In this document: piece after piece, positions 13,446 to 48,506 of the stretch | Numbering within the stretch: the first letter of the stretch is position 1 | Layout: every line of letters starts with the position of its first letter | Program-made: the position numbers and the translations under genes | DNA from: Candidatus Nomurabacteria bacterium | Lineage (GTDB): Bacteria > Patescibacteriota > Minisyncoccia > Phycocordibacterales > UBA9973 | NCBI GenBank assembly: GCA_943348755.1 | Contig: CALQYS010000006.1 | Span: 1 to 48,506, forward strand | Reading direction: 5' to 3' | DNA length: 48,506 nt | The notes under the pieces: model-generated | The model's database searches: none | Told to the model about the DNA's origin: nothing | The model's input: the letters and a program-made list of their open reading frames with translations, nothing else

Positions 13446-13517
13446 CAGGCTCACCCATGCCTCCATTTTTTCAATTTAACATTTTTTGCGATTTTATCAA
13501 AAATAAAACAAGAACAT

Positions 13518-13542
13518 AAAAAGCCCCTTTTGGGAGCTTTTT
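13518..13542 (-). terminator. Intrinsic terminator, probably once that of tRNA-Glu
   Basis: AAAAAGCCCC-TTTT-GGGAGCTTTTT forms a stem with a single bulge and T-runs on both strands. Only 8 bp separate it from the mobile element's left end. Joining the two flanks of the element would place it about 13 nt after the tRNA-Glu 3' end on the same strand. Confidence 0.6.
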
Positions 13543-13549
13543 ACTACGC

Positions 13550-13837
13550 GTGAACTAATTATACACTTTGCACGAACTTTTTTCGAGGGGAAATCCTAGC
13601 GTGCCTCGCGCCCGCCAAAGGCGGGCAGGCGTTCTACGCCCTTTTTCCAAAGGAGAAAAGCGAGGCACGCAATACCAATACAAAATGGACTCGGTTTTGC
13701 GAAACTATTTTGCGGGAGGGAGGGTTCGCAAAACCGAGACTAAGTTTTTTGAAATTCGGCGGGATTCGGGTTTCCGCCCCGCAGGAGGGTGCGGGAGGAA
13801 TGCGGGGCGGGGGTTTTGGAATTTTGGCGGGGGGCTA
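13550..13837 (+). repeat. 288-bp inverted repeat, left copy (module A)
   Basis: Identical by eye to the reverse complement of 15554-15841. It contains nested palindromes: GCGTGCCTCGC...GCGAGGCACGC enclosing GCCCGCC-aaa-GGCGGGC, CTCGGTTTTGCGAA...TTCGCAAAACCGAG, and a GC-rich arm around CCGCCCCGC...GCGGGGCGG. The outer end carries TATAAT facing outward. The 93-codon ORF in each copy (MHELFSRG...) is low-complexity readthrough of these structures and I do not call it a gene. Confidence 0.92.
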
Positions 13838-13855
13838 GAAAATTCTTAAAATTGA

Positions 13856-14998
13856 TTAGAGGCTTAATATGCCAGAAAGCTCAAAGGCAGATTTTAATCT
13901 TGCTTGTTTGATTTTGCTTTCTAGTGAATCATCAAAATCTATCCATCTAATACCATATACATTTATGGTTTGTCTTTTGGTGGGTTGGATACCATTTCTT
14001 TTTTCATTTTCATAATACTCATATTTTTTGACTGATTCAGTGGGAAGACCAAGAAGAATGCCAACAGCCAAATGATTACCTACTGCTGATTTATTTTCGC
14101 CAATAGAACCCATAATTGTATCTGGATCATCAGAACCGAAAATCTCAAATATCTCTTTATGTTTTTTTATAACATCTCCAACTTGTTCTTTGTCATATAC
14201 ATACTTACCTTTCACTTCTATACCAAAAGATTTTAATAAATTAATTATTTCTAAATTATCAGGGTCCAGAGGTGTTTCAAGTAAAACAACAGGTTTTTCT
14301 CCCAAAAATAGTGCCTTGAGTGCGTTCAGATCGATTGGGTTAAAAATGGTTTCAAATTTTTCTCGTACTGATTGTTCTTGTATGATTTTAATAAATTGCT
14401 TAAATTTTTCTGCTCCTTTATTCCATTTTAAGGTATCTAATTCGTTAAAAATTTCTACTGGAGATTCAAATATTACTGGAGCTGGTGGAGTATTAGCACT
14501 TGTTCGTAAAGCATTGTTATATAATGTGTGAAATTCTGAATTTAATATTGTATATTCTTGCTCATCACCACTGGAAAGAGAACCTAAAAGTTTCCTCAAC
14601 CTACTAAGGATTTGTAGTCGCTCAAACTTTTCGTCATCCATTTCAAATACAATAGGATGCTCCATAGAATCTTGACTCCGTGTTTTGGTAATATGTTCTT
14701 CCGGTTTTTCAGTATTTGCAACTCTTACACGGCTTGAAGTTTCAACAGCATTAATAAATTTTTTATTCAAATCGGAATACTCTTCTCTGTCTGCTTCACT
14801 TAAGTTTTCACCCATAGCGAGAATTGCACCAAGTTCTTGAAGTCGGTTAAAATTTTCTTCTCCCATTATTTCTACACTATTATATCCATTAGGAACCACA
14901 GGAGAAGCTTCAGCAGTTGTTGATATGTTTTCTATCTTTTTTTGTGTTTTTACACCATTTAACGATGGATTAAGCGGTGTGGGTGAAAATCCTTCCAT
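13856..14998 (-). CDS. Unknown cargo protein of module A
   Basis: 380 residues, not recognised. The N-terminus is Ser/Pro/Thr-rich and disordered. Two similar helical segments follow, FNRLQELGAILAMGENLSEA (about residue 50) and FERLQILSRLRKLLGSLSSG (about residue 124), each continuing with (E)EYxxLNxxF, so an internal duplication is likely. The C-terminal half is globular-looking (VVLLETPLDPDNLEIINLL, VGNHLAVGILLGLPTESVKK). There is no signal peptide or membrane segment. TAGAAT lies 6 nt before the ATG, giving the leaderless layout. It ends 18 bp from the left inverted repeat. Confidence 0.75.
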   Translation of the reverse strand: MEGFSPTPLNPSLNGVKTQKKIENISTTAEASPVVPNGYNSVEIMGEENFNRLQELGAILAMGENLSEADREEYSDLNKKFINAVETSSRVRVANTEKPEEHITKTRSQDSMEHPIVFEMDDEKFERLQILSRLRKLLGSLSSGDEQEYTILNSEFHTLYNNALRTSANTPPAPVIFESPVEIFNELDTLKWNKGAEKFKQFIKIIQEQSVREKFETIFNPIDLNALKALFLGEKPVVLLETPLDPDNLEIINLLKSFGIEVKGKYVYDKEQVGDVIKKHKEIFEIFGSDDPDTIMGSIGENKSAVGNHLAVGILLGLPTESVKKYEYYENEKRNGIQPTKRQTINVYGIRWIDFDDSLESKIKQARLKSAFELSGILSL

Positions 14999-15095
14999 GC
15001 TTACATTCTATCACAAAAATACTATACACATAATTTTGCTTGACTTCCTTCGCTCGTTTGCTATACTTAATACACAAAGTGCCGAAAGGCTCCGA

Positions 15096-15120
15096 GAAAC
15101 CCCGCCAAAAGCGGGGTTTC
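15096..15120. terminator. Hairpin between the two module A genes
   Basis: GAAACCCCGC-caaaa-GCGGGGTTTC is a perfect 10-bp stem directly after the toxin gene on its strand. No strong T-run follows, so an attenuator or mRNA end is possible. Confidence 0.45.
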
Positions 15121-15126
15121 GAGTTT

Positions 15127-15516
15127 CTAGAGGAAAGATTTTAATTTTTGCCTAATTTCATCAAAAAGTTCGTTTGAAACCTCATAGAGCTTTCTTTTTA
15201 ATCTTTTCACACTAACTAATTTCATTTGTGCCAAAATCGCAGAAACTTTTTGATTATTTGGATCGGTGTAATTGAAATAAAAATCAAAATCTTTCTGCTT
15301 GGTGGAAAGTGATATAGACCAAAACATATGATTATTAAATTTCTTAATTATTAAAATCGGACGAGAAAAATTATCTCCGCTTCCATTTTGTTCAAATCCG
15401 ATATTTCTGCCAAGACTACACATCCAAACTTCTCCCTCTTTGGGAAATTTATCAGGATCATTTTTCTCGGCTTCAATTTTCTTTTTTAACTCATTCCAAG
15501 AGTCAAAATCTTTCAT
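15127..15516 (-). CDS. MazF/PemK-like toxin (type II toxin-antitoxin family)
   Basis: A 129-residue protein resembling the PemK/MazF fold: GEVWMCSLGRNIGFEQNG, then FSRPILIIKKFN, then FWSISLS, then the C-terminal SAILAQMKLVSVKRLKRKL. These correspond to the family's G(D/E)(V/I)W, RP.(L/V)(I/V), and (S.(I/A)..(Q)(I/M)(R/K).(I/V)) blocks. MazF-type proteins are sequence-specific mRNA endonucleases. No antitoxin gene is visible beside it; the neighbour upstream is the inverted repeat. It may help stabilise the element, or be a degenerate or regulatory relative. TAAAAT lies 6 nt before the ATG. Confidence 0.75.
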   Translation of the reverse strand: MKDFDSWNELKKKIEAEKNDPDKFPKEGEVWMCSLGRNIGFEQNGSGDNFSRPILIIKKFNNHMFWSISLSTKQKDFDFYFNYTDPNNQKVSAILAQMKLVSVKRLKRKLYEVSNELFDEIRQKLKSFL

Positions 15517-15553
15517 AGAAAGATTTTATCATATTTTGTATTTAATTTCTGGA

Positions 15554-15841
15554 TAGCCCCCCGCCAAAATTCCAAAACCCCCGCCCCGCATTCCTCCCGC
15601 ACCCTCCTGCGGGGCGGAAACCCGAATCCCGCCGAATTTCAAAAAACTTAGTCTCGGTTTTGCGAACCCTCCCTCCCGCAAAATAGTTTCGCAAAACCGA
15701 GTCCATTTTGTATTGGTATTGCGTGCCTCGCTTTTCTCCTTTGGAAAAAGGGCGTAGAACGCCTGCCCGCCTTTGGCGGGCGCGAGGCACGCTAGGATTT
15801 CCCCTCGAAAAAAGTTCGTGCAAAGTGTATAATTAGTTCAC
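15554..15841 (-). repeat. 288-bp inverted repeat, right copy (module A)
   Basis: Reverse-complement copy of 13550-13837. Its outer end has TATAAT at 15828-15833 on the plus strand reading toward the recombinase, with TCGAAA 17 nt upstream as a weak -35. Together with 15838-15967 it fills the gene-free stretch between the toxin and the recombinase. Confidence 0.92.
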
Positions 15842-15967
15842 CCAAAGAAACGTTTGCGAAATTAGAAATAAGGTGCGAGTTTTCAGAATGAAAACTCGCG
15901 CTAGGTAGCCCGCTTCCGCCCTTTGCGGAAGCGACAAAATCCCAAAGTTCCCCCCAGTGTATGGAAA
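15838..15967 (+). repeat. 130-bp inverted repeat, left copy (module B)
   Basis: Perfect reverse complement of 17375-17504. It holds two strong hairpins: GCGAGTTTT-cagaatg-AAAACTCGC and CGCTTCCGC-ccttt-GCGGAAGCG. Its inner end contains the ATG assigned to the recombinase. Confidence 0.95.
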
Positions 15968-17562
15968 CAATTCAAATCAAAACAAAATGTGTTCTCTACG
16001 CCAGAAAATCTACTGAAGATGACGACAAACAAGTCATGAGTATTGAAGCTCAACTTTTTGAACTGCGTGAATATGCGCGTAGAGAATGCATTGAAATTCT
16101 AAAAGAATTTACGGAAGCGAAAAGCGCAAAGAAACCCGGGCGAGAAGAATTTGCCAAAATGTTGGCGTTCGTGGAAACTTCAAAAGAACCAATCGGCATA
16201 CTCGCTTGGCATCCAGACCGTCTCGCCCGAAATTCTGTTGATGGTGGAAAAATAATATACTTAGTGGACATCAACAGAATTGCTTCTTTACGCTTTCCTC
16301 AGTTTTGGTTTGAATCAACTCCGCAAGGCAAATTTATGTTGCAAGTGGCTTTCGGACAATCAAAATATTTTTCTGATAATCTTGTTGAAAATGTGAAGCG
16401 CGGAGTCCGCCAAAAACTTCGCCGTGGGGAATGGCTTACAAAAGCTCCGTATGGTTATGTAAATAATTTGAAAACGAGAAATATTGAACCTCATCCCGTG
16501 TATTCAAAAATCGTGGTGAGAGCTTTTGAAGAATATGTGAAAAATATTTACACCATTGAAGGATTAAGCAAATTTTTGGCGGACTTAGGACTTGTCACAA
16601 AAATAGGAAAGCCACTTGCCAAAGCTTGCATTGTGCGATTACTTACCAATCGTGCATATTTAGGATTTATCAAACACCACGATGAATGGCACAATGGAAG
16701 CTTTGCGCCAATTATTTCTCCGACCCTGTTTGAAGCAGTGCAGAAAATCTATAAAACGAGACAGAGACCGAGAAAATCTAAAATTGCTCATCCATTTCAT
16801 TTTCTCGGTTTTGCTCGTTGTGGCGAGTGTGGAGGTATGTTTACCGCTCAATATTCTACCAACCGTTTTGGCACAAAATATTCATATTATCGTTGCACAA
16901 AAAAGTTTGGGAAGTGCGGTCAACTATACCTCCAAGAAAACGCACTCGCCACACAACTGCAAACACTGCTTCAATCAGTGTCGCTTCCCCGTGAAGAAAT
17001 ATTAAAAATGGAAAAGAAAATTGATGAATGGGAAAATGAAAATATTTGCGCGCGGGGAAGTGTTGTCCAAAATCTCAAAGAAAAGATTCGAGAAAATCAA
17101 GAGAAGCTGGACAAACTTGTTTCCATTTACCTAGACGGGGACATTGAACGAGAAATATATTTAGAACGAAAAGATTTACTCATGCGAGAAAAAGCTTCTT
17201 TTCTCGAATCCGAAAGAGATTTTGGACAACAGAGAAAAAATTGGATCGAACCCTTGCGGAGTTTCGTTTTGTCCTTGAAAGAATGTGCCGATTTGGAAAA
17301 AACCGAAAATTATTTGGAATGGAAGCGGTTTTTCAAAAAAATCGGCTCTAACCCTGAAATCAAGGACAAAACGATTTCCATACACTGGGGGGAACTTTGG
17401 GATTTTGTCGCTTCCGCAAAGGGCGGAAGCGGGCTACCTAGCGCGAGTTTTCATTCTGAAAACTCGCACCTTATTTCTAATTTCGCAAACGTTTCTTTGG
17501 GTGACCCTACAGGGAATCGAACCCTGATTATCGGATTGAAAACCCGGTGTCCTAACCGTTAG
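15961..17562 (+). CDS. Large serine recombinase
   Basis: A site-specific recombinase of the resolvase/invertase superfamily. The catalytic domain begins CVLYARKSTEDDD with Ser17 as nucleophile, and continues with MSIEAQ and the arginine motif WHPDRLARN. A recombinase (DNA-binding) domain follows (APYGYVNN...). Then comes a zinc ribbon (CGECGG...YYRCTKKFGKCG, near residues 287-320) and a coiled coil near 340-430. The last 43 or so residues before the tRNA are encoded by the right 130-bp repeat, and the final 20 (GDPTGNRTLIIGLK...) are antisense tRNA-Glu, so the natural C-terminus is probably lost or fused. The start codon lies in the left repeat. Confidence 0.9.
   Translation: METIQIKTKCVLYARKSTEDDDKQVMSIEAQLFELREYARRECIEILKEFTEAKSAKKPGREEFAKMLAFVETSKEPIGILAWHPDRLARNSVDGGKIIYLVDINRIASLRFPQFWFESTPQGKFMLQVAFGQSKYFSDNLVENVKRGVRQKLRRGEWLTKAPYGYVNNLKTRNIEPHPVYSKIVVRAFEEYVKNIYTIEGLSKFLADLGLVTKIGKPLAKACIVRLLTNRAYLGFIKHHDEWHNGSFAPIISPTLFEAVQKIYKTRQRPRKSKIAHPFHFLGFARCGECGGMFTAQYSTNRFGTKYSYYRCTKKFGKCGQLYLQENALATQLQTLLQSVSLPREEILKMEKKIDEWENENICARGSVVQNLKEKIRENQEKLDKLVSIYLDGDIEREIYLERKDLLMREKASFLESERDFGQQRKNWIEPLRSFVLSLKECADLEKTENYLEWKRFFKKIGSNPEIKDKTISIHWGELWDFVASAKGGSGLPSASFHSENSHLISNFANVSLGDPTGNRTLIIGLKTRCPNR
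17375..17504 (-). repeat. 130-bp inverted repeat, right copy (module B)
   Basis: Inverted copy of 15838-15967. It codes for the recombinase C-terminal region (SIHWGELWDFVASAKGGSG) on the plus strand and overlaps the last 3 nt of tRNA-Glu. Confidence 0.95.
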
Positions 17563-17573
17563 ACGATAGGGCC
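17502..17573 (-). tRNA. tRNA-Glu (TTC)
   Basis: Minus strand: acceptor GGCCCTA/TAGGGTC, D arm TCGTCTAACGGTTAGGAC, anticodon loop TTTTCAA (TTC), and T arm CAGGG-TTCGATT-CCCTG. Discriminator A is followed by CCC, not CCA, and these bases belong to the mobile element repeat. TTGCAA, 16 nt, TATATT lies just upstream on the minus strand and should be the promoter. The recombinase ORF reads through this gene in antisense and stops inside it. Confidence 0.93.
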
Positions 17574-17653
17574 ATGTAGAAAAATATAGCATTTTTGTAC
17601 TTAATTGCAAAACAAAAGAATAAATTAAATATAAAAAAATATTTTGAAAAAGT

Positions 17654-36125: not shown

Positions 36126-39100
36126 TTACGGTCCCGCCGTAGGAGCAGGAGCATTAACATTGACTGTCCTAGTGACTTCTATGGCGTGGTTGCCAGCGGT
36201 ATCGGTAGCATTGTAGTGAATTGTATAGGTGCCAGCGGTGTTTGTATCTACTGTGCCACTAATGATGACAGCGACAGAAGTGTCTACATCGTCTGTGGCA
36301 GTGGCTCCTTGTTCACTATACGTCTCTCCTACATTTAGATTCATTGTGCTATCGCCATTTAGAGTAATTACTGGTGGAGTTGTGTCTGCTCCTGGAGTTG
36401 CACCACCCCCTGTTCCTGGATCTGCTGGTGGAGTACCGCCAGCGCTACTACCCCCACTTCCAGAGCTACTTCCGCCGGTGTTGTTGGCGACGCTGGAACT
36501 ACTACCCGCTGCCATGGCTTCGAGCTTATCACCATCTGCACAAAACTCAGTGCCATCGGATTTCGCAACACAAATTTGCTTGGTGTGTACCTTGTTGGCA
36601 AAAAAGTCTCCAATATTATTCGCCTTATCCGCCATCCAAGTATCAACTTTTTCATAAACATTTTTAAAGAAAGCATTAACAAAAGACTCATTGGTAGAAC
36701 CAGCAAGTGGCGTAATGGTGCCAGCGATGGCATTAAGATTAAGATCAAGTTCTTGAATAGATGCGATCATCACAGGAGTGAGTTTGGAATAATCCACCAT
36801 CCACTTATCTGCGTCATTGATTGGCTTAGTTACAGCGTGAGGATAAACATTATAGAGTTCTTGGGCAAAGACTCCAGTGTATAAATTGTGATTAGCATCG
36901 TTTTTCCAGGTAAAGTCGTGTATTTTTATTTGATTTAACACATTAAGAGACGAAGCAGTATTTTCGTTGACTAAATTCTTTAATCTTTGATCTGATGTTG
37001 TGTTATAGGCCGTGGCAGAAGAGCCAAAAGTAATTGAACCAATATCACCGCCATCGCCATCTTTAAAAGCAATAAGTGTAGATGGCCCAGCTGCGGTGTC
37101 ATCATCTAGACCAGCCTGAATGAGAACACCACTACGATTGGCGTTGTTGCCATCATTGAAAAAATTCGCAACATAAGAAGCAACATCATTTTTTACGTCA
37201 AATTTATAGCCTGGCGTCGTTGTCCCGATACCGACAGCACCCTCAAAATAAGCAGAATTTGCCCTGGTGATAGTAGTGTTTGTTCCAGCAATTGGTTTAG
37301 GCACATAAAGAGTAAATGCATCAGTGACTGTAATAGCATTTGTGGAAGCAAAGGTTGGGGCACCGAAACTATTGGCCGTTCTTATGGCCACTGTGCCTGC
37401 GGCAGCCGTACTTGTATCAGTGTATGTGGCAGCATTAGAGTCAAATGCTATACCATCTGTGGTCCATGAAGAAGCAGAGATGTTTCCATCTATCATTAGG
37501 TGCGCAGTGGGAGAAGTACTACCTATACCAAAATTACCACCAGAAGCAAAACGTCCACGTTCGCCATAAGCCGAGCCGGTATAGGTATAAAACATAAGAC
37601 CAGAAGTGTTGTTTGAACGAGTACCCAGAACAAGATTACCACTATCATCCACTGCTATCTGAGCAGAAAGAATACCAGAATCAGGGCCACTTCTGTCCCA
37701 ACCAATTCTTAGACGAGCGCTCGTTCCGGCTCCACCGATACCAACTAGGGTCTCATCACCTCCATCATCAATATCCAATATATTGGTTGCTGTTGTACCT
37801 ATACCCACTCTTCCACTGTCAGTAATGCTCATCTTGACAGAACCTCCAGCACCAGATCCACTTGCACTGTAATTCTCACGGAAAAATCTTAAAGTACCAG
37901 CACTGTTGTCAAAATTCCACATATTTGTTGAATCATTAGAAGCAACGAGTGTTAAACGTGCATTTGCTGCTCCAGAAATACGAATACCTTGTGAAGAAGC
38001 GCCGACCACATGAAGTGGTGCGACTGGTGTAGTTATTCCGATACCGACCGCCGCTGCACTCGTATCCACATATAATTGATTTGTATTTACCGCAAAGTCT
38101 CCTGTAGTAGAAAGAGCCACGTTTAAATTACTTCCTGCAGCTGGGGTCATAGTGATAGCTCCAGTGCTGATGAGAGATGGAGTCGATACAGATGTGGAAG
38201 ACAGAAGTTTGGTAGCGGAAAGTGTGTCTGTGGCAAAAGTTAAATCCGCATCATCAGAGAGAAGCCCTCCTGTACCAGCAAAAGTTACTCGGGTTGCTGT
38301 CAACCCAGAGTTGGTGAGATTGGTAAATGTACCCATTCCCGCATTGTTTATGCTGGCTACGGTAGTAGAAGTGCCACCAGTTGTTGTAAACTGATAACTA
38401 TCATAAGCATTAAAAATTAGAACATTGCTTGTATTTCTTATGTTAGCACCGGTACCAGCACCAAAATTAATACCCCCTGCCGCAGTTTGAAGAAGAAGAT
38501 TTGCGTATATAGTGACGTTATCAGTGCTTAAAACATTGGTTCCTGTTTGAGGCGAATAGAAAGCAAAACCCTGATAAGGAGCGCTGAGAGTCATTATACT
38601 ACTACCATCAGTTTTTAGTGATCCTCCACCGACAAATAAATATCCTGAAGCAGCAGGTACTGTTATTGATGATCCTGTGTTTATAGCTCCAGCCACACCG
38701 AGACCACCCGAAACCTTAAGCGCTCCAGTGGTGCTAGAAGTGGAGGCAGTGGTAGAGCTAACCGTCGTAGCTGCATTTATCGCCAAAGTCTGTGACGCCA
38801 CTGTGGAATTAAATGTTCCATACAAAAGCGCTCCGGCGATATCTCCAGCACGATTTGTGCGAGATTGGTTGTCTATGAAAAGTTCATTTGATTGAGTAGT
38901 ACTATAAGCACCAGCAGAGTAACCTATGGAGACGTTGTTTGAGCCAGTAGTAGCAGAGATACCCGCTTGAGAACCTAAATATGTGTTGTAATTTCCAGAA
39001 CTAACAGCATAACCAGCCTGCCAACCAACGCCCGTATTTTCGGCAGCTCCATTGGAAGAAGAGAGTGATCTGTAACCAACGGCAGTATTTCTATTACCAG

Positions 39101-42100
39101 TTTGGGTCGTAGAAAGAGCTTCTCGCCCAATAGCAGTATTTTGTATAGCTGTTGTGTTTGCAGTTAATGCACTTAAGCCAACTGCTACATTGTCTGTACC
39201 CGTTGTATTCGCAAATAAAGCACTATTACCGAATGCAGAGTTAGATGAACCTGTGGTATTTGTATACATCGAAGAAACACCAATAGCGGTATTTGAACCA
39301 CCAGAAGTAGTATTGGTCATTGCGTTATAGCCCATTGCTGTATTAGAAGCTGCAGTGTTGTTATATAGAGTTGCATAACCAACAGCCGTATTTCCATTTC
39401 CCGTAACTACACTAGCTAGCGAACTATCTCCTATAGCGACATTCCCCGCACCTGTAGTATTCAATAAAAGCGCATCCCCACCAATAGCCACGTTTGAGTT
39501 ACCTGTAGTGTTCGCATTCAATGCACGATATCCCAGAGCCACATCATATGTAGCAGTAGTTAAAGCTGCTGCTGCTGCTGAACCCACCGCCACATTTTTG
39601 TTGCCTGTAGTAGACGCTGCCAAAGCACTCGAACCTACAGCAGTGTTGTCCGATGCGGTGGTCATGGCCACCAATGCAGAATAACCCACAGCTGTGTTAC
39701 GAGCTCCTGTGGTCGCCGTGTATCCGGCTTGGGAACCAACGAAAGTATTAAACGTTCCGCTGGTATCTGATGTGCCCGCAAAGAAACCAACAAATGTATT
39801 TTCTGCCCCAGTTAGAGCCCCTGCTCCAGCTCCTGCGCCGACAATGGTCGCTCGAGTGGCGGTGGTATTACCTCCCGCACCCTGTGAACCGACTACTACA
39901 GTATCAGCATTGCTTCCTGAACCTAAACCTATTCTAAGAGTATTGATGAAAGAATCTTTTGCAATACCCACACCTCCAGAAACTACCAAGGCTCCTGTTG
40001 TTGTAGAAGTGGAAGCGGTAGTATTTGTTAAAGTTGCAACACCAGATGCTCCAAGAGTTGTTACCCCACTAAGTGGACCACTTAAAGCTAGAGATGTCCC
40101 AGACGCTGCACCAATATTTGGCGTCGTAAAGCTTGGACTCTCCAAAAAGGCAAATGTTTTTCGGGCAGCTCCGGTTGTAATCGTTCCATAAAATGCATCA
40201 GTTAGAAATTCCACTGCTCCAGCTTCGGGTGTGGTATTTAGAGAGCCTGAAGTAAATTTTAATGGTGCGGTGCTTGCTGTAGCTGTGCCAGCTCCTAAGT
40301 GAAGATAAGCAGTGGGTGCGGTAGTTCTTATGCCAAGAAGTCCACCAGTAGCATTGATAACAATATTTGCAGAATTACTATTACCATTTGTACCACCTTC
40401 GATCTTATAATAAGTATTACCAGAGACAGCAGATGGGTATATTCTGAATCCTGACCCAGTTGAACCACTCACCCAATCACTATTCGTGAGACCTAAAGAA
40501 CCTCCTAAAGTAGACGAGCCTCTGAACCCAGCCGATACGGTAGCACTGAATAAGTCACTGCCATTAAATGAAGCAGTACCATCTTGAGTAAATGTAAGAG
40601 CGTTTATTGAAGCACCACCTCCGCCAGCCATAAAGAAATTAAGTTTGTCTGTAGCTGGATTTCCATTAAAACTACTTTGAATTTCATTGTAGTAAACGGT
40701 TGGCTGTGCACTGTATGAAAGTCTTATGTTCGCTGAATTAGTAAAAGAACCAGCAACATTACGGCTGACTTCCAATGCTTGGGCTGGTGATGTGATCCCG
40801 ATCCCAACATTACCTGCGGAATCAATTCTCATCCTCTCAGAATTATTTGTTGCAAATGTATAAGGTTGAGCAGCAGAAGTACCTGTGATAAGTGCGGAGT
40901 TTACGTAGATTGCACTTGCACCAGCTTTAGTAACACCAAACAAAGTACCTGAAATTGAGTTTCCATAAGTTTCCATCGAAAGGGCATTACCATTGTTGGT
41001 ATTTTGAGCATAAAGAGAAGCAGTAGCATTGGCAGCTGTGGCATTAGCAGTAAAATATGTATTTTGAGAAGTTTGAGCAATAATATTTCCTGCTACTTGT
41101 AGTTTTTCACTTGGACTTGTGGTGCCGATGCCGACATTACCACTGCTATCAATCGTCATCCGTTCTGTACTGTTTGTCGCCAAACTAACACGGTTGGCTG
41201 CTGGTAAGTAGAGACCATTGGTTGGTACAGTACTTCCGGTCGGAATAAATGAAGCAGCAGAGGCAGAGGAAGAAATAGCTGTCATACCCGTCACTGCTAA
41301 TGCATTGCTTCCGAGAGTTGCACCATTGACAGCAAGTGAAGTTGCGGTTGCGACACCCAAGATTGGTGTAGTCAAAGTCTTGTTTGAAAGCGTCTCTATC
41401 CCAGCTAAAGTGGCCAGAGTGCCGGTCGTCGGCAGGGTAACACTGGTTGCTGCAGTAGTCAAAAGCGAGAGAGCATTTGTGGGCGAGAAGGTAACTACTT
41501 CACCACCACCTAGTGTAATGGCGTTGGTGGCAAGAGTCGTACTGTCTGAGACGGTAAGAGTTTTACTTGCGCCGAGAGTAAGAGTACCTGTGCCAGTGGT
41601 AATGGTGTTACCATTAATGCTAAGAGCAGTAAGCGCACCCGAGAGAGCAAGAGTGGTTCCAGTCAATGCCCCACTGCTAGCAATGCTTGTGCCACCGACA
41701 GTGAGAGCGCCAGTGAGTGTCGTCGCTCCCGCTACATTCAAGGTAGTAACGTTGGTGGTGGTAGCATTAATAATATTGGAGTTTAGACTTGCAATGTTCG
41801 CATAAGCACCACCAGGGAAATTATTAGCTGAAGAGTCTGGATTAGCTAGACGAACTGGTAGATAAGCTACAGAGTTAGGAGTGGAAGGTTGACTTAAACC
41901 TTGAGGTCCCGCTGGACCTTGGGGTCCAGTGGGACCACGTAGTTGGTCAGCGATTTCTTTTTTAGAAAGTATCTTTCGTAAAGCGGAGAGGACGCTAGAT
42001 TCACTGACGGATGATGGTGGGGTGGATACGTAGACTACAGGGGGGTTAGTGACAATAGATGATACAGAATTATCACCTTTTTCAGCACCTTGATTGGGTA

Positions 42101-42308
42101 AGAGTGCCGAAGGCGGGATAGTGTTATTTTGAGTAACTGGCGTGATTACAGAAGAAGAAGCAACATAGCTTCTAAAAGCATGGACAAGAGAGTTGGTATT
42201 TACTGCAGCCGATGCATCAGGGGTATATAGAAAAAGAAAAAAAGCAAAGACAAAAAGTCCAAGTGGAAATCTTTTTACGAGTGCCCTAAAATTATTTTTA
42301 TTTTTCAT
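36126..42308 (-). CDS. Giant secreted fibre protein with collagen-like, head-repeat, S74 chaperone and Ig-like domains
   Basis: 2060 residues. A signal-like N-terminus (FPLGLFVFAFFLFLYT...ASA) is followed by a collagen-like run (GPTGPQGPAGPQG, about residues 121-137). Long Ser/Thr/Gly-rich beta-helical repeats follow. A block of roughly 16 tandem 20-24-residue units (NTAVGYSAL-type, about 820-1143) resembles YadA-like heads. An intramolecular chaperone of the peptidase S74 type comes next (SDQRLKNLV...YTGVFAQELYNVYP...VDYSKLTPVMIASIQEL, about 1766-1860). The rest is a Cys-bearing linker (KQICVAKSDGTEFCADG) and an Ig-like/DUF5011-type domain (TPPVITLNGDSTMNLNVGE). By family knowledge S74 domains trimerise fibres and self-cleave at the Ser of SDxR. 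A surface adhesin is the likely role. Confidence 0.9.
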   Translation of the reverse strand: MKNKNNFRALVKRFPLGLFVFAFFLFLYTPDASAAVNTNSLVHAFRSYVASSSVITPVTQNNTIPPSALLPNQGAEKGDNSVSSIVTNPPVVYVSTPPSSVSESSVLSALRKILSKKEIADQLRGPTGPQGPAGPQGLSQPSTPNSVAYLPVRLANPDSSANNFPGGAYANIASLNSNIINATTTNVTTLNVAGATTLTGALTVGGTSIASSGALTGTTLALSGALTALSINGNTITTGTGTLTLGASKTLTVSDSTTLATNAITLGGGEVVTFSPTNALSLLTTAATSVTLPTTGTLATLAGIETLSNKTLTTPILGVATATSLAVNGATLGSNALAVTGMTAISSSASAASFIPTGSTVPTNGLYLPAANRVSLATNSTERMTIDSSGNVGIGTTSPSEKLQVAGNIIAQTSQNTYFTANATAANATASLYAQNTNNGNALSMETYGNSISGTLFGVTKAGASAIYVNSALITGTSAAQPYTFATNNSERMRIDSAGNVGIGITSPAQALEVSRNVAGSFTNSANIRLSYSAQPTVYYNEIQSSFNGNPATDKLNFFMAGGGGASINALTFTQDGTASFNGSDLFSATVSAGFRGSSTLGGSLGLTNSDWVSGSTGSGFRIYPSAVSGNTYYKIEGGTNGNSNSANIVINATGGLLGIRTTAPTAYLHLGAGTATASTAPLKFTSGSLNTTPEAGAVEFLTDAFYGTITTGAARKTFAFLESPSFTTPNIGAASGTSLALSGPLSGVTTLGASGVATLTNTTASTSTTTGALVVSGGVGIAKDSFINTLRIGLGSGSNADTVVVGSQGAGGNTTATRATIVGAGAGAGALTGAENTFVGFFAGTSDTSGTFNTFVGSQAGYTATTGARNTAVGYSALVAMTTASDNTAVGSSALAASTTGNKNVAVGSAAAAALTTATYDVALGYRALNANTTGNSNVAIGGDALLLNTTGAGNVAIGDSSLASVVTGNGNTAVGYATLYNNTAASNTAMGYNAMTNTTSGGSNTAIGVSSMYTNTTGSSNSAFGNSALFANTTGTDNVAVGLSALTANTTAIQNTAIGREALSTTQTGNRNTAVGYRSLSSSNGAAENTGVGWQAGYAVSSGNYNTYLGSQAGISATTGSNNVSIGYSAGAYSTTQSNELFIDNQSRTNRAGDIAGALLYGTFNSTVASQTLAINAATTVSSTTASTSSTTGALKVSGGLGVAGAINTGSSITVPAASGYLFVGGGSLKTDGSSIMTLSAPYQGFAFYSPQTGTNVLSTDNVTIYANLLLQTAAGGINFGAGTGANIRNTSNVLIFNAYDSYQFTTTGGTSTTVASINNAGMGTFTNLTNSGLTATRVTFAGTGGLLSDDADLTFATDTLSATKLLSSTSVSTPSLISTGAITMTPAAGSNLNVALSTTGDFAVNTNQLYVDTSAAAVGIGITTPVAPLHVVGASSQGIRISGAANARLTLVASNDSTNMWNFDNSAGTLRFFRENYSASGSGAGGSVKMSITDSGRVGIGTTATNILDIDDGGDETLVGIGGAGTSARLRIGWDRSGPDSGILSAQIAVDDSGNLVLGTRSNNTSGLMFYTYTGSAYGERGRFASGGNFGIGSTSPTAHLMIDGNISASSWTTDGIAFDSNAATYTDTSTAAAGTVAIRTANSFGAPTFASTNAITVTDAFTLYVPKPIAGTNTTITRANSAYFEGAVGIGTTTPGYKFDVKNDVASYVANFFNDGNNANRSGVLIQAGLDDDTAAGPSTLIAFKDGDGGDIGSITFGSSATAYNTTSDQRLKNLVNENTASSLNVLNQIKIHDFTWKNDANHNLYTGVFAQELYNVYPHAVTKPINDADKWMVDYSKLTPVMIASIQELDLNLNAIAGTITPLAGSTNESFVNAFFKNVYEKVDTWMADKANNIGDFFANKVHTKQICVAKSDGTEFCADGDKLEAMAAGSSSSVANNTGGSSSGSGGSSAGGTPPADPGTGGGATPGADTTPPVITLNGDSTMNLNVGETYSEQGATATDDVDTSVAVIISGTVDTNTAGTYTIHYNATDTAGNHAIEVTRTVNVNAPAPTAGP

Positions 42309-45989: not shown

Positions 45990-48506
45990 TTAGGGTGCGG
46001 GTGTTGAATCTGGGGCTGGGGTTGGATCTGGAGTTGGAGATGGTGTAGGTGTCGTTTCTGGTGCTGGAGTTGGATCAGTTATTGGTGTGGGGTCAGGAGA
46101 AGGAGTTGGTGCTGAACTTTCACCTCCAGTCTGTCCTAATGAACCCGGAGTATTATTTACAACACTGCTACTAGCAGACCCCGTTAAAAGAGCGTCAAGT
46201 TTTTCACGTGTAATGCAGGTTTCGCCGGAGTCGTTACTTACACAAAGTTCCTTAGTTCTTACTCGATTTGCAATAAAATCTCCTATCCCATTTCCGACAT
46301 CCCCCATCCAAGTCCCAACCTTAGCAAAAACATTTTTGAAGAAAGCTGTGACAAAAGATTCATCTACCGAACCAGCGAGCGGAGTGATGGTGCCAGCTAT
46401 TGCACCTAATTTTAATTCTGGCATTTGATAATTTAGATTCATAAATGTGAGAACCTTCGTCTTGCCAGCAGAACTCTCTAAAGCAATACCCACGCCCTGT
46501 CCCGACTCTGTCATCTTCATAGCATAACCCGGTAAGGTTTTTGATGGAGCCAGCCTATCGCCCGGAATGATAGCTCCATTCTCTTCTGAAATTTTAACTG
46601 GGATTCTTCCCGCAAGAGCTACTTTCCTCCATTCTCCTCTAGTTTGATTACCTAAAGTTAGACCAGGATTTGTGGAAATTATACCGATAACATTATTTAT
46701 CCCTAGTGCATTTCTAATAAGTTTTCCATCTGCACCAACACTAACCACGTCACCCGGTACCAGTGTTGGATCAAGTGTTTGGTATTGTTCTGACACGTCG
46801 AAACCTCCCGCCAAAGTAGAAGTTAAGCCCTTAAAATTAACAGCATAGACATTATTAAAGAAACCGGAAGTATTTGTGCCTATGTCTCCTGATGGATTAT
46901 AAATTGTAAAAGCGTCTGTGGCCGCGTTTGTGACAGTGCTATTAGTTAGAGTTACAACTTGATAAGTAGTAGCTCCATCGACACATTGCGCAACAGAGGC
47001 AATTATATCATGTAGAGCTGCTGTGGAATTATAAAAGATGTGTCCTACGGTGGGAGCGGTTGTTCCAACAAAAACTGCAATGTTAACAGTGTTAACAGTG
47101 GCAACACAAGTACCAGTGCCATCAGTTAGAGTCGAAGTACCCATACTAACTGTACTATTGGCCGTGTCACTTATGGTACCAGCTACAGATAACGATGTAG
47201 CTGAAGCCACGCCAAGGGTTGGAGTCACCAACGTTGGGCTCGTAGAAAACACAAGATTAGTTGAAGTTGTTCCAGTTGCTCCACTAGCAGTGTAGCCTGT
47301 GATGTTGTTGAAGGCGGTGATACCAGCAGAAGTAGCATTAGTTCCACCTTGAGCCACAGTTACTACTGCATTACTGGTTAAAATAGTTGCAGAAGCATTC
47401 GGTAAAGTAAAGGTTTTTTCTGAAGTAGTAGGTCCTGTAAACTTAGTAAATCCATTTCCAGTTCCACCATAAGTTGAAGCAATAACTTGAGTAAGTGCCG
47501 CAGTGCCATCAAAGTTGTTACCATAAATAGCACGTGTAGTAGCAAGAGCCGTCGCAGTACTTGCTGTTCCAGTTAAAGCACCCACGAAAGTTGTCGCATT
47601 GACGGTGTTTGCAAAAGTTGCACTTTGGTCAGCGTTTAAGGTAAGTGCGGTAGTTGCCGTACCACCACTTGTCGTGGTTTGTAAAGCTAGGGTTCGGCTG
47701 TTGCCGGTACCAGCGGTGATGGTCATGTTACCTGCTCCACCTGTTAAAGTCCACGATCCTGTTCCGCTGATATTTCCACCAAATGTAGAAGATTGATCTG
47801 CGTTTCCTGTCAAGAAAGCAGTGGCCGTACCACCACTTGTAGTACTTTTCAACGTAAGAGTTCTACTATTTCCGGTACCAGCGGTGATAACCATATTACT
47901 TGCTCCACCTGTTATATCTCCAACTGATGTAAGTGAACCTGTGATGTTCGCTGTACCATCAAAGCTTTGACCCCATAAAGTTCTTGCAGTGGCTAGAGCA
48001 GTGGCAGCACCAGCCGTTAAGCTTGCAGCAGTACCTGTTAGATTAGTGGCAACACCAGAAGCAGGAGTACCTAGGGCTGGAGCTACAAATGTTTTATTCG
48101 TTAAAGTCTGGGTTCCTCCCACTGTCACTACACTTGCAGTATTTGTTCCTGCAGTAGTGATACGAAGATCCCCAGTACCTTCAGTTAAAATTCCAGTAGT
48201 GTGAGTAAATACCACATCACCGTTTGCATAATTGATAACTGCACCTGAAGCAAGGAAAAGGTCAGAGAAATTGTGTGTGGCATTTCCGAGTGCTGCACCA
48301 TCGTCAGTGCCAGGTAGAAGAGAGGTATTGATCGCGACAGAAGCCAGGTTATCTAAAGCGGTTGTAGCTCCTGAGGATCCACTTCCACAATCAGAACCTG
48401 TTCCAGAGACTACTCCACTAGTATTTACATGTAAACATTGAGTAGAGCCAGTAATGGAACTTAGGGTTAATCCAGAGGCTGTAGCGGCACCAATATTCGG
48501 AGTGAC
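45990..48506 (-). CDS. Giant surface/fibre protein, C-terminal part (partial, runs off right edge)
   Basis: The frame is open to the window edge (838 residues visible); the GTG start in the ORF track at 48215 is internal. The body is Thr/Ser/Gly/Ala-rich fibre sequence with repeats such as TLTNKTFVAPALGTPASG and MVITAGTGNSRTLTLKSTT. Near nt 46805-46440 lies a segment like peptidase G2-type self-processing chaperones (FDVSEQYQTLDPTLVPGDVV, VALAGRIPVKISEENG, IPGDRLAPS). Next is the linker shared with the gene at 36126 (AGTITPLAGSVDESFVTAFF, KELCVSNDSGETC), then a Pro/Thr-rich tail (TPAPETTPTPSPTPDP) that may span or anchor at the envelope. It lies 65 bp upstream-strand-wise of leuS. Confidence 0.85.
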   Translation of the reverse strand, partial: VTPNIGAATASGLTLSSITGSTQCLHVNTSGVVSGTGSDCGSGSSGATTALDNLASVAINTSLLPGTDDGAALGNATHNFSDLFLASGAVINYANGDVVFTHTTGILTEGTGDLRITTAGTNTASVVTVGGTQTLTNKTFVAPALGTPASGVATNLTGTAASLTAGAATALATARTLWGQSFDGTANITGSLTSVGDITGGASNMVITAGTGNSRTLTLKSTTSGGTATAFLTGNADQSSTFGGNISGTGSWTLTGGAGNMTITAGTGNSRTLALQTTTSGGTATTALTLNADQSATFANTVNATTFVGALTGTASTATALATTRAIYGNNFDGTAALTQVIASTYGGTGNGFTKFTGPTTSEKTFTLPNASATILTSNAVVTVAQGGTNATSAGITAFNNITGYTASGATGTTSTNLVFSTSPTLVTPTLGVASATSLSVAGTISDTANSTVSMGTSTLTDGTGTCVATVNTVNIAVFVGTTAPTVGHIFYNSTAALHDIIASVAQCVDGATTYQVVTLTNSTVTNAATDAFTIYNPSGDIGTNTSGFFNNVYAVNFKGLTSTLAGGFDVSEQYQTLDPTLVPGDVVSVGADGKLIRNALGINNVIGIISTNPGLTLGNQTRGEWRKVALAGRIPVKISEENGAIIPGDRLAPSKTLPGYAMKMTESGQGVGIALESSAGKTKVLTFMNLNYQMPELKLGAIAGTITPLAGSVDESFVTAFFKNVFAKVGTWMGDVGNGIGDFIANRVRTKELCVSNDSGETCITREKLDALLTGSASSSVVNNTPGSLGQTGGESSAPTPSPDPTPITDPTPAPETTPTPSPTPDPTPAPDSTPAP

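Follow-up and report, generated by a model that had tools for sequence, protein, structure and literature searches.

We analysed a window of 48,506 nucleotides from a Candidatus Nomurabacteria bacterium (GTDB lineage Bacteria; Patescibacteriota; Minisyncoccia; Phycocordibacterales; UBA9973), which spans positions 1 to 48,506 of the forward strand of contig CALQYS010000006.1 (assembly GCA_943348755.1). Two 288-bp repeats lie within it, one on the plus strand (13550–13837) and one on the minus strand (15554–15841). The initial annotation had judged the two copies identical by eye; the identity is indeed exact over 288/288 bp, and the orientation, which it left unmentioned, is inverted. A reading of the copies as direct repeats was dropped on account of this orientation, which is also the reason why a direct-repeat scan had missed them. 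The 288-bp pair (A arms) encloses two cargo genes on the minus strand, namely P0001 (13856–14998), a gene without assigned family that gave no Pfam match above the cut-off and no PADLOC match, and P0002 (15127–15516), which encodes a PemK/MazF-like toxin (Pfam E 1.5e-8). A further inverted pair, 130 bp in length (B arms; 15838–15967 on the plus strand and 17375–17504 on the minus strand, 100% identical), begins 4 bp inside the right A arm and encloses P0003 (15961–17562, plus strand). This gene encodes a large serine recombinase with Resolvase, Recombinase and zinc-ribbon domains (Pfam matches of 1e-21, 2.3e-10 and 9.5e-8), the catalytic motifs YARKST and DRLARN, and YokA as a relative in the PDB. 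P0003 reads toward a tRNA-Glu(ttc) gene located by ARAGORN at 17498–17574 on the minus strand, and its end (17375–17562) is encoded in the distal B arm, antisense into the tRNA gene (GDPTGNRT...). On the far side of the cargo, a terminator scan placed a terminator-like hairpin at 13516–13544 (minus strand), which comparison with relatives suggests to be the displaced terminator of tRNA-Glu. Elsewhere in the window we noted a 2060-aa ORF (36126–42308), together with two repeats unrelated to the element described below: a 300-nt direct repeat of 90% identity whose copies are 41 kb apart (754–1053 and 41682–41981), and a tandem repeat spaced 168 nt (47612–47914).

Junctions, arms and att sites

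On sequence grounds, 13550–17504 makes up a 3955-bp integrated element in the order tRNA-Glu, core, B'-recombinase-B, core (inverted), A'-cargo-A, core, chromosome, and its 288-bp and 130-bp repeats represent the A and B arms, respectively, of a 414-bp attP region that is present twice in inverted orientation. Starting at the tRNA, the three junctions read GTAGGG-TCAC-CCAAAG (tRNA/B), CTTTGG-GTGA-ACTAAT (B/A) and ATTAGT-TCAC-GCGTAG (A/chromosome); their assignment as attL, an intact but inverted attP and attR is well supported, and the element therefore carries two inverted attP sites, one of them split by integration. The intact internal attP (15554–15967, plus strand, 414 bp) consists of the inverted A arm copy A' (15554–15841), the core TCAC (15838–15841) and the B arm beside this core (15838–15967); it is inverted relative to attL and attR, and its exact string occurs once in the window. 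The same four core bases are found on the minus strand at 17501–17504 in attL and at 13550–13553 in attR. The attL copy of the B arm (B', 17375–17504) extends into the 3' end of tRNA-Glu, while the attR copy of the A arm, which is the repeat initially reported (13550–13837), has its outer end at 13550 and its inner end toward the cargo.

The 3' end of the tRNA gene would provide the left half of attB, and the flank carrying the terminator-like hairpin the right half. When these halves were joined in silico, tRNA-Glu was followed by this hairpin, and comparable hairpins stand directly after tRNA-Glu in three relatives (L144, L150 and L111); the right flank of attB in the window is thus a reconstruction rather than an intact site taken from a relative. 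A search for the empty site of the window via its TrxB neighbours returned no relative colinear enough across the junction.

In serine integrases the distance from the centre to the motif bound by the zinc domain is 5 bp greater in attP than in attB (PMC3783163). Across the family described below, the usual distance between the B edge and a TTC(G) motif is 22 bases for the A arm and 17 for the T loop of the tRNA, and the outward shift of TTC in attP relative to the tRNA amounts to 4–6 bp in 37/38 loci, with a mode of 5 (about 3% expected by chance from shuffled flanks). This shift matches the published one, and thus the T loop is probably one half of attB. The serine recombinase would then join attP to the 3' end of the tRNA gene by recognising GTTCG twice, once in the T loop as part of attB and once in the A arm, where the motif is displaced outward by 5 bp.

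Distribution, targets and cargo

Homologues of the A arm were found in 21/60 genomes searched, usually as inverted pairs, and homologues of P0003 in 58/80 genomes of the same genus. The full layout, with a tRNA junction, an inverted internal attP and a far end with the common core, was recovered at 14 loci of 2.5–9.5 kb, including two incomplete ones (the junction of L109 contains Ns, and the repeats detected in L102 end before the core). In this set the core is common to attL, attR and attP, and it varies with the tRNA (TCAC, CCGC, CGCAC, GCAC, CAGC and CTCC), TCAC being found at Glu, CCGC at Ser, GCAC at Leu, CAGC at Gln and CTCC at Thr. An empty site is available for one locus, L106, which lies between tRNA-Thr(cgt) and a prfB-like gene recognised by translation; the two genes are adjacent in L011, L032 and L046. 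A wider set comprises 60 distinct recombinase loci whose B arms are inverted (median length 124 bp, 99.2% identical). At the B edge of 43/60 of them stands a tRNA gene that stays complete with the insertion at its 3' end; it lies beyond the 3' end of the recombinase in 42/43, and more than 20 tRNA species are represented. A second A end was seen in 12/18 loci having at least 4 kb of contig on the cargo side, and the six others may be decayed or longer elements. Within one element the A arms share a median identity of 99%, while identity between elements is far lower, and the arms are therefore copied or corrected inside each element.

Several further loci of the family, or parts of them, are present in the source genome (G000; L009–L012, L101): contig C3 carries Type IIG R-M cargo, C4 a metallophosphoesterase, C9 Shedu, C11 a recombinase at tRNA-Leu and C8 an A-arm end. 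Individual loci show departures from the common plan. At L073:7989–9813 a recombinase segment stands between tRNA-Leu(caa) and tRNA-Leu(gag) with a B arm joined to each, which suggests, from a single draft assembly, either that the internal attP also recombined with a second tRNA or that the contig is misassembled. The recombinase segments of L122:4978–10897 and L124:9202–11833 are longer (2.6–5.9 kb) and may carry extra genes. At L098:12287–12306 a stretch equal or close to the initial 19 bases of the B arm recurs around the attR core, perhaps as the trace of an earlier insertion. Besides, the elements fragment assemblies of Patescibacteria: contigs of metagenome-assembled genomes often end inside A or B arms (L047, L056, L112, L178 and many others), which leaves cargo on small separate contigs.

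Related elements that carry other cargo, in many cases anti-phage genes, are found across the Patescibacteria. Using Pfam and PADLOC on the cargo proteins scanned, which are a part of all cargo ORFs, we recognised Shedu, an AbiP2-type reverse transcriptase with R-M genes, type I, IIG and IV restriction, a helicase-nuclease, ArsP/thioredoxin/ArsR, a D-Ala-D-Ala ligase, an aminoglycoside nucleotidyltransferase-like protein and a glycosyltransferase with NUDIX, besides proteins without assignment. Among the same proteins no transposase and no replication or conjugation gene was recognised. The source genome encodes a ComEC homologue, so competence would be a possible entry route. In a search for extrachromosomal or viral forms, plasmid and phage records returned distant recombinases only, the best phage record (MT836653) having no inverted arms, and neither the H3 loop described below nor P0003 had a match in IMG/VR.

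The hairpins of the A arms

Three nested stem-loops had been proposed for each 288-bp copy. All the stems named were found, though in a series arrangement in which only the first, H1, encloses other hairpins. H1 has the stem GCGTGCCTCGC (13599–13609) / GCGAGGCACGC (13660–13670) and thus covers 13599–13670 on the plus strand, with three small hairpins inside in a cloverleaf-like shape. H2 (13690–13738, plus strand) has the stem CTCGGTTTTGCGAA (13690–13703) / TTCGCAAAACCGAG (13725–13738) and a conserved loop of the family actattttctggggaaagga. H3 (13774–13810, plus strand) has the stem CCGCCCCGC (13774–13782), whose partner ends at 13810, and a conserved G-rich loop of the family AGGAGGGGTCTGGGGAGGAAT. 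Folding of one copy and covariation across homologues, two of the checks put forward in the initial annotation, both gave structure. One copy folds far better than its shuffles, at -68.8 kcal/mol as DNA (z -6.1) and with z -4.5 as RNA, 0/200 shuffles being as good for either.

As to covariation, in an alignment of H3 from 77 distinct arms 88.9% of cells are paired versus 65.4±1.1 after shuffling. This set was gathered by loop motif with 76 rows kept at 6/8 or more Watson-Crick pairs, a selection that raises the paired fraction and leaves the diversity of pair types as it is. Double-change cells in these 77 sequences number 159 versus 54±5 when shuffled, and the covariation score is 0.567 versus at most 0.200 when the alignment is slid. 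For H2, 52/56 stems have at least 8/9 pairs, versus 28% for swapped partners, and they are as variable as the H3 stems. The free loss of stems without covariation, named beforehand as part of the refuting outcome, was absent. This evidence covers H2 and H3, not H1, whose sequence differs in relatives; one of them (L039) shows by eye a similar branched shape made of other bases. The exact H3 loop is confined to A arms in the source genome and, across GTDB genomes, almost only to Patescibacteria, with the exact H3 pattern present in 6/192 genomes in an even draw of the phylum.

The first reading of the repeat offered recombinase-binding cruciforms or a folded RNA. Its recombinase half holds in so far as the repeat is an arm of a serine-recombinase attP; the recombinase site is, however, the outer ~30 bp (GTTCG motif and core), with the hairpins further inward. 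Since the outer arm ends vary between recombinase groups while H2 and H3 are common to them, the hairpin module is not the site of recombinase specificity. An RNA role, as a leader RNA or retro-regulator, is unlikely, even though several features agree with it: changes are compensatory and loops conserved, the G-rich strand runs inward in paired arms, cargo is mostly directed away from the internal attP, and in the integrated form most cargo operons have the hairpins upstream of them in the G-rich orientation, whereas in a circle the recombinase mRNA would contain the hairpins at its 3' end. Against it, wobble pairs are nearly absent. Mismatches in H2 and H3 comprise 15 G-T and 9 A-C in 1016 cells, versus 50 and 1 in 1589 cells of tRNA acceptor stems from the same loci; both the H2 and the tRNA stems were chosen for good pairing, so the G-T:A-C ratio counts more than the mismatch level. 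In Rfam searches at the gathering threshold and at E<=1, only the tRNA reached threshold and no structured-RNA family was found for the hairpins. Moreover, the two A arms of one element, L009 (2706–3007 and 5492–5794), carry H3 loops that are exact reverse complements of each other, a single case in a draft assembly; such a flip to the complement is a DNA-level event. The few, strand-unbiased wobble pairs and the flipped loop therefore favour a structure at the DNA level over RNA.

H2 and H3 thus likely work as folded DNA, either as a cruciform or as a single strand. Their strict pairing could in part come from a mutational process, template switching, and not from selection. As a best guess, the hairpins would serve initiation or protection of a single-stranded form, or promote exchange and homogenisation between arms.

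Movement of the element and related systems

The explanation that we hold with good confidence, judging from sequence comparison, is that a serine recombinase would integrate and excise an element with a doubled, inverted attP whose H2 and H3 hairpins likely act as folded DNA. Excision would rebuild a circle carrying two inverted attP sites; no directionality factor was recognised in the element. Such a circle would share the plan of the yeast 2-micron plasmid (two inverted sites, two unique segments, an own recombinase and near-identical repeats), and the inverted attP copies might recombine with each other and flip recombinase and cargo, giving phase variation or amplification. This site-specific inversion is improbable. 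Orientations are non-random, the recombinase pointing toward the tRNA in 42/43 loci and the cargo away from the internal attP in 16/19 (toward it in two, L098 and L105, and mixed in L010), counts that lower free flipping of the 2-micron kind; no replication gene was recognised among the cargo proteins scanned; and serine integrases normally leave pairings other than attP x attB, such as attP x attP, unrecombined without a helper factor (PMC3783163). The fixed layout suggests use of the split attP copy, with the intact copy serving as the divergent control region.

It is still less probable that the hairpins insulate the cargo, either as terminators or as GC palindromes arisen by chance: perfect GC-rich stems do stand at either cargo end, but their loops are of ~20 bases, a T tract is absent right after the stem, the terminator scan gives just one 5-bp hairpin per arm, and stems change while loops are conserved. 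Two unrelated transposons side by side, with terminal inverted repeats of 288 and 130 bp, would account for the separate inverted repeat around each segment, but are hardly credible given a core common to all junctions, a tandem found again at numerous tRNA genes, a motif shift of 5 bp and cargo proteins among which the scan found no transposase.

We found no published description of such cassettes in the open-access (PMC) literature. Returning to the doubled attP with folded DNA, we tentatively propose, at somewhat less than even odds, a class of mobile cassettes of Patescibacteria in which attP is obligatorily doubled and inverted with a conserved DNA-hairpin module in each copy, and in which folding of the element, as a cruciform or as a single strand, for instance after competence uptake, has a working part in its life cycle and in the exchange of cargo. 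Little is known about how Patescibacteria, which are small and streamlined, obtain and trade genes for defence and adaptation, and compact cassettes that turn up at many tRNA genes and cause assemblies to break at the repeats are easily missed. A serine-recombinase family with tRNA targets readable from sequence and built-in attP/attB pairs is also of interest as a source of tools, and covarying DNA hairpins tied to site-specific recombination offer a testable case.

Prophages and integrative elements with large serine recombinases (phiC31, A118/LI, Bxb1 and SPbeta YokA) share with the cassette the catalytic, recombinase and zinc-ribbon domains, the conversion of attP x attB to attL/attR and the 5-bp shift of the zinc-domain motif. 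The cassette differs from them in targeting many tRNA 3' ends, in its second, inverted intact attP, in its hairpin-rich arms and in its size (2.5–9.5 kb at the 14 full loci), with phage genes not recognised. tRNA-borne genomic islands (the Islander set) have the same target at the tRNA 3' end and variable cargo including defence genes; PMC4383910 describes tRNA integration as catalysed by tyrosine integrases. A tyrosine integrase is usual, though not absolute, for such islands, whereas the cassette has a serine recombinase and an attachment site present twice in inverted orientation. Tycheposons likewise target the 3' ends of tRNA genes and carry variable cargo including defence genes. In SCC/Ccr cassettes, serine recombinases move a cassette with variable cargo, as here, but into rlmH and not into tRNA genes, and SCC is not known to have a duplicated attP. 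The two inverted recombination sites of the yeast 2-micron plasmid split its circle into two unique segments, and in the cassette, too, two inverted sites separate the recombinase from the rest; it has, however, a serine and not a tyrosine recombinase, is integrated, keeps a fixed orientation and has no recognised replication genes. Finally, integron attC sites act as folded DNA in which the unpaired bases are conserved and the stems diverge, whereas the hairpins of the cassette adjoin a normal double-stranded serine attP, with no IntI and no cassette array, and accompany a single block of cargo.
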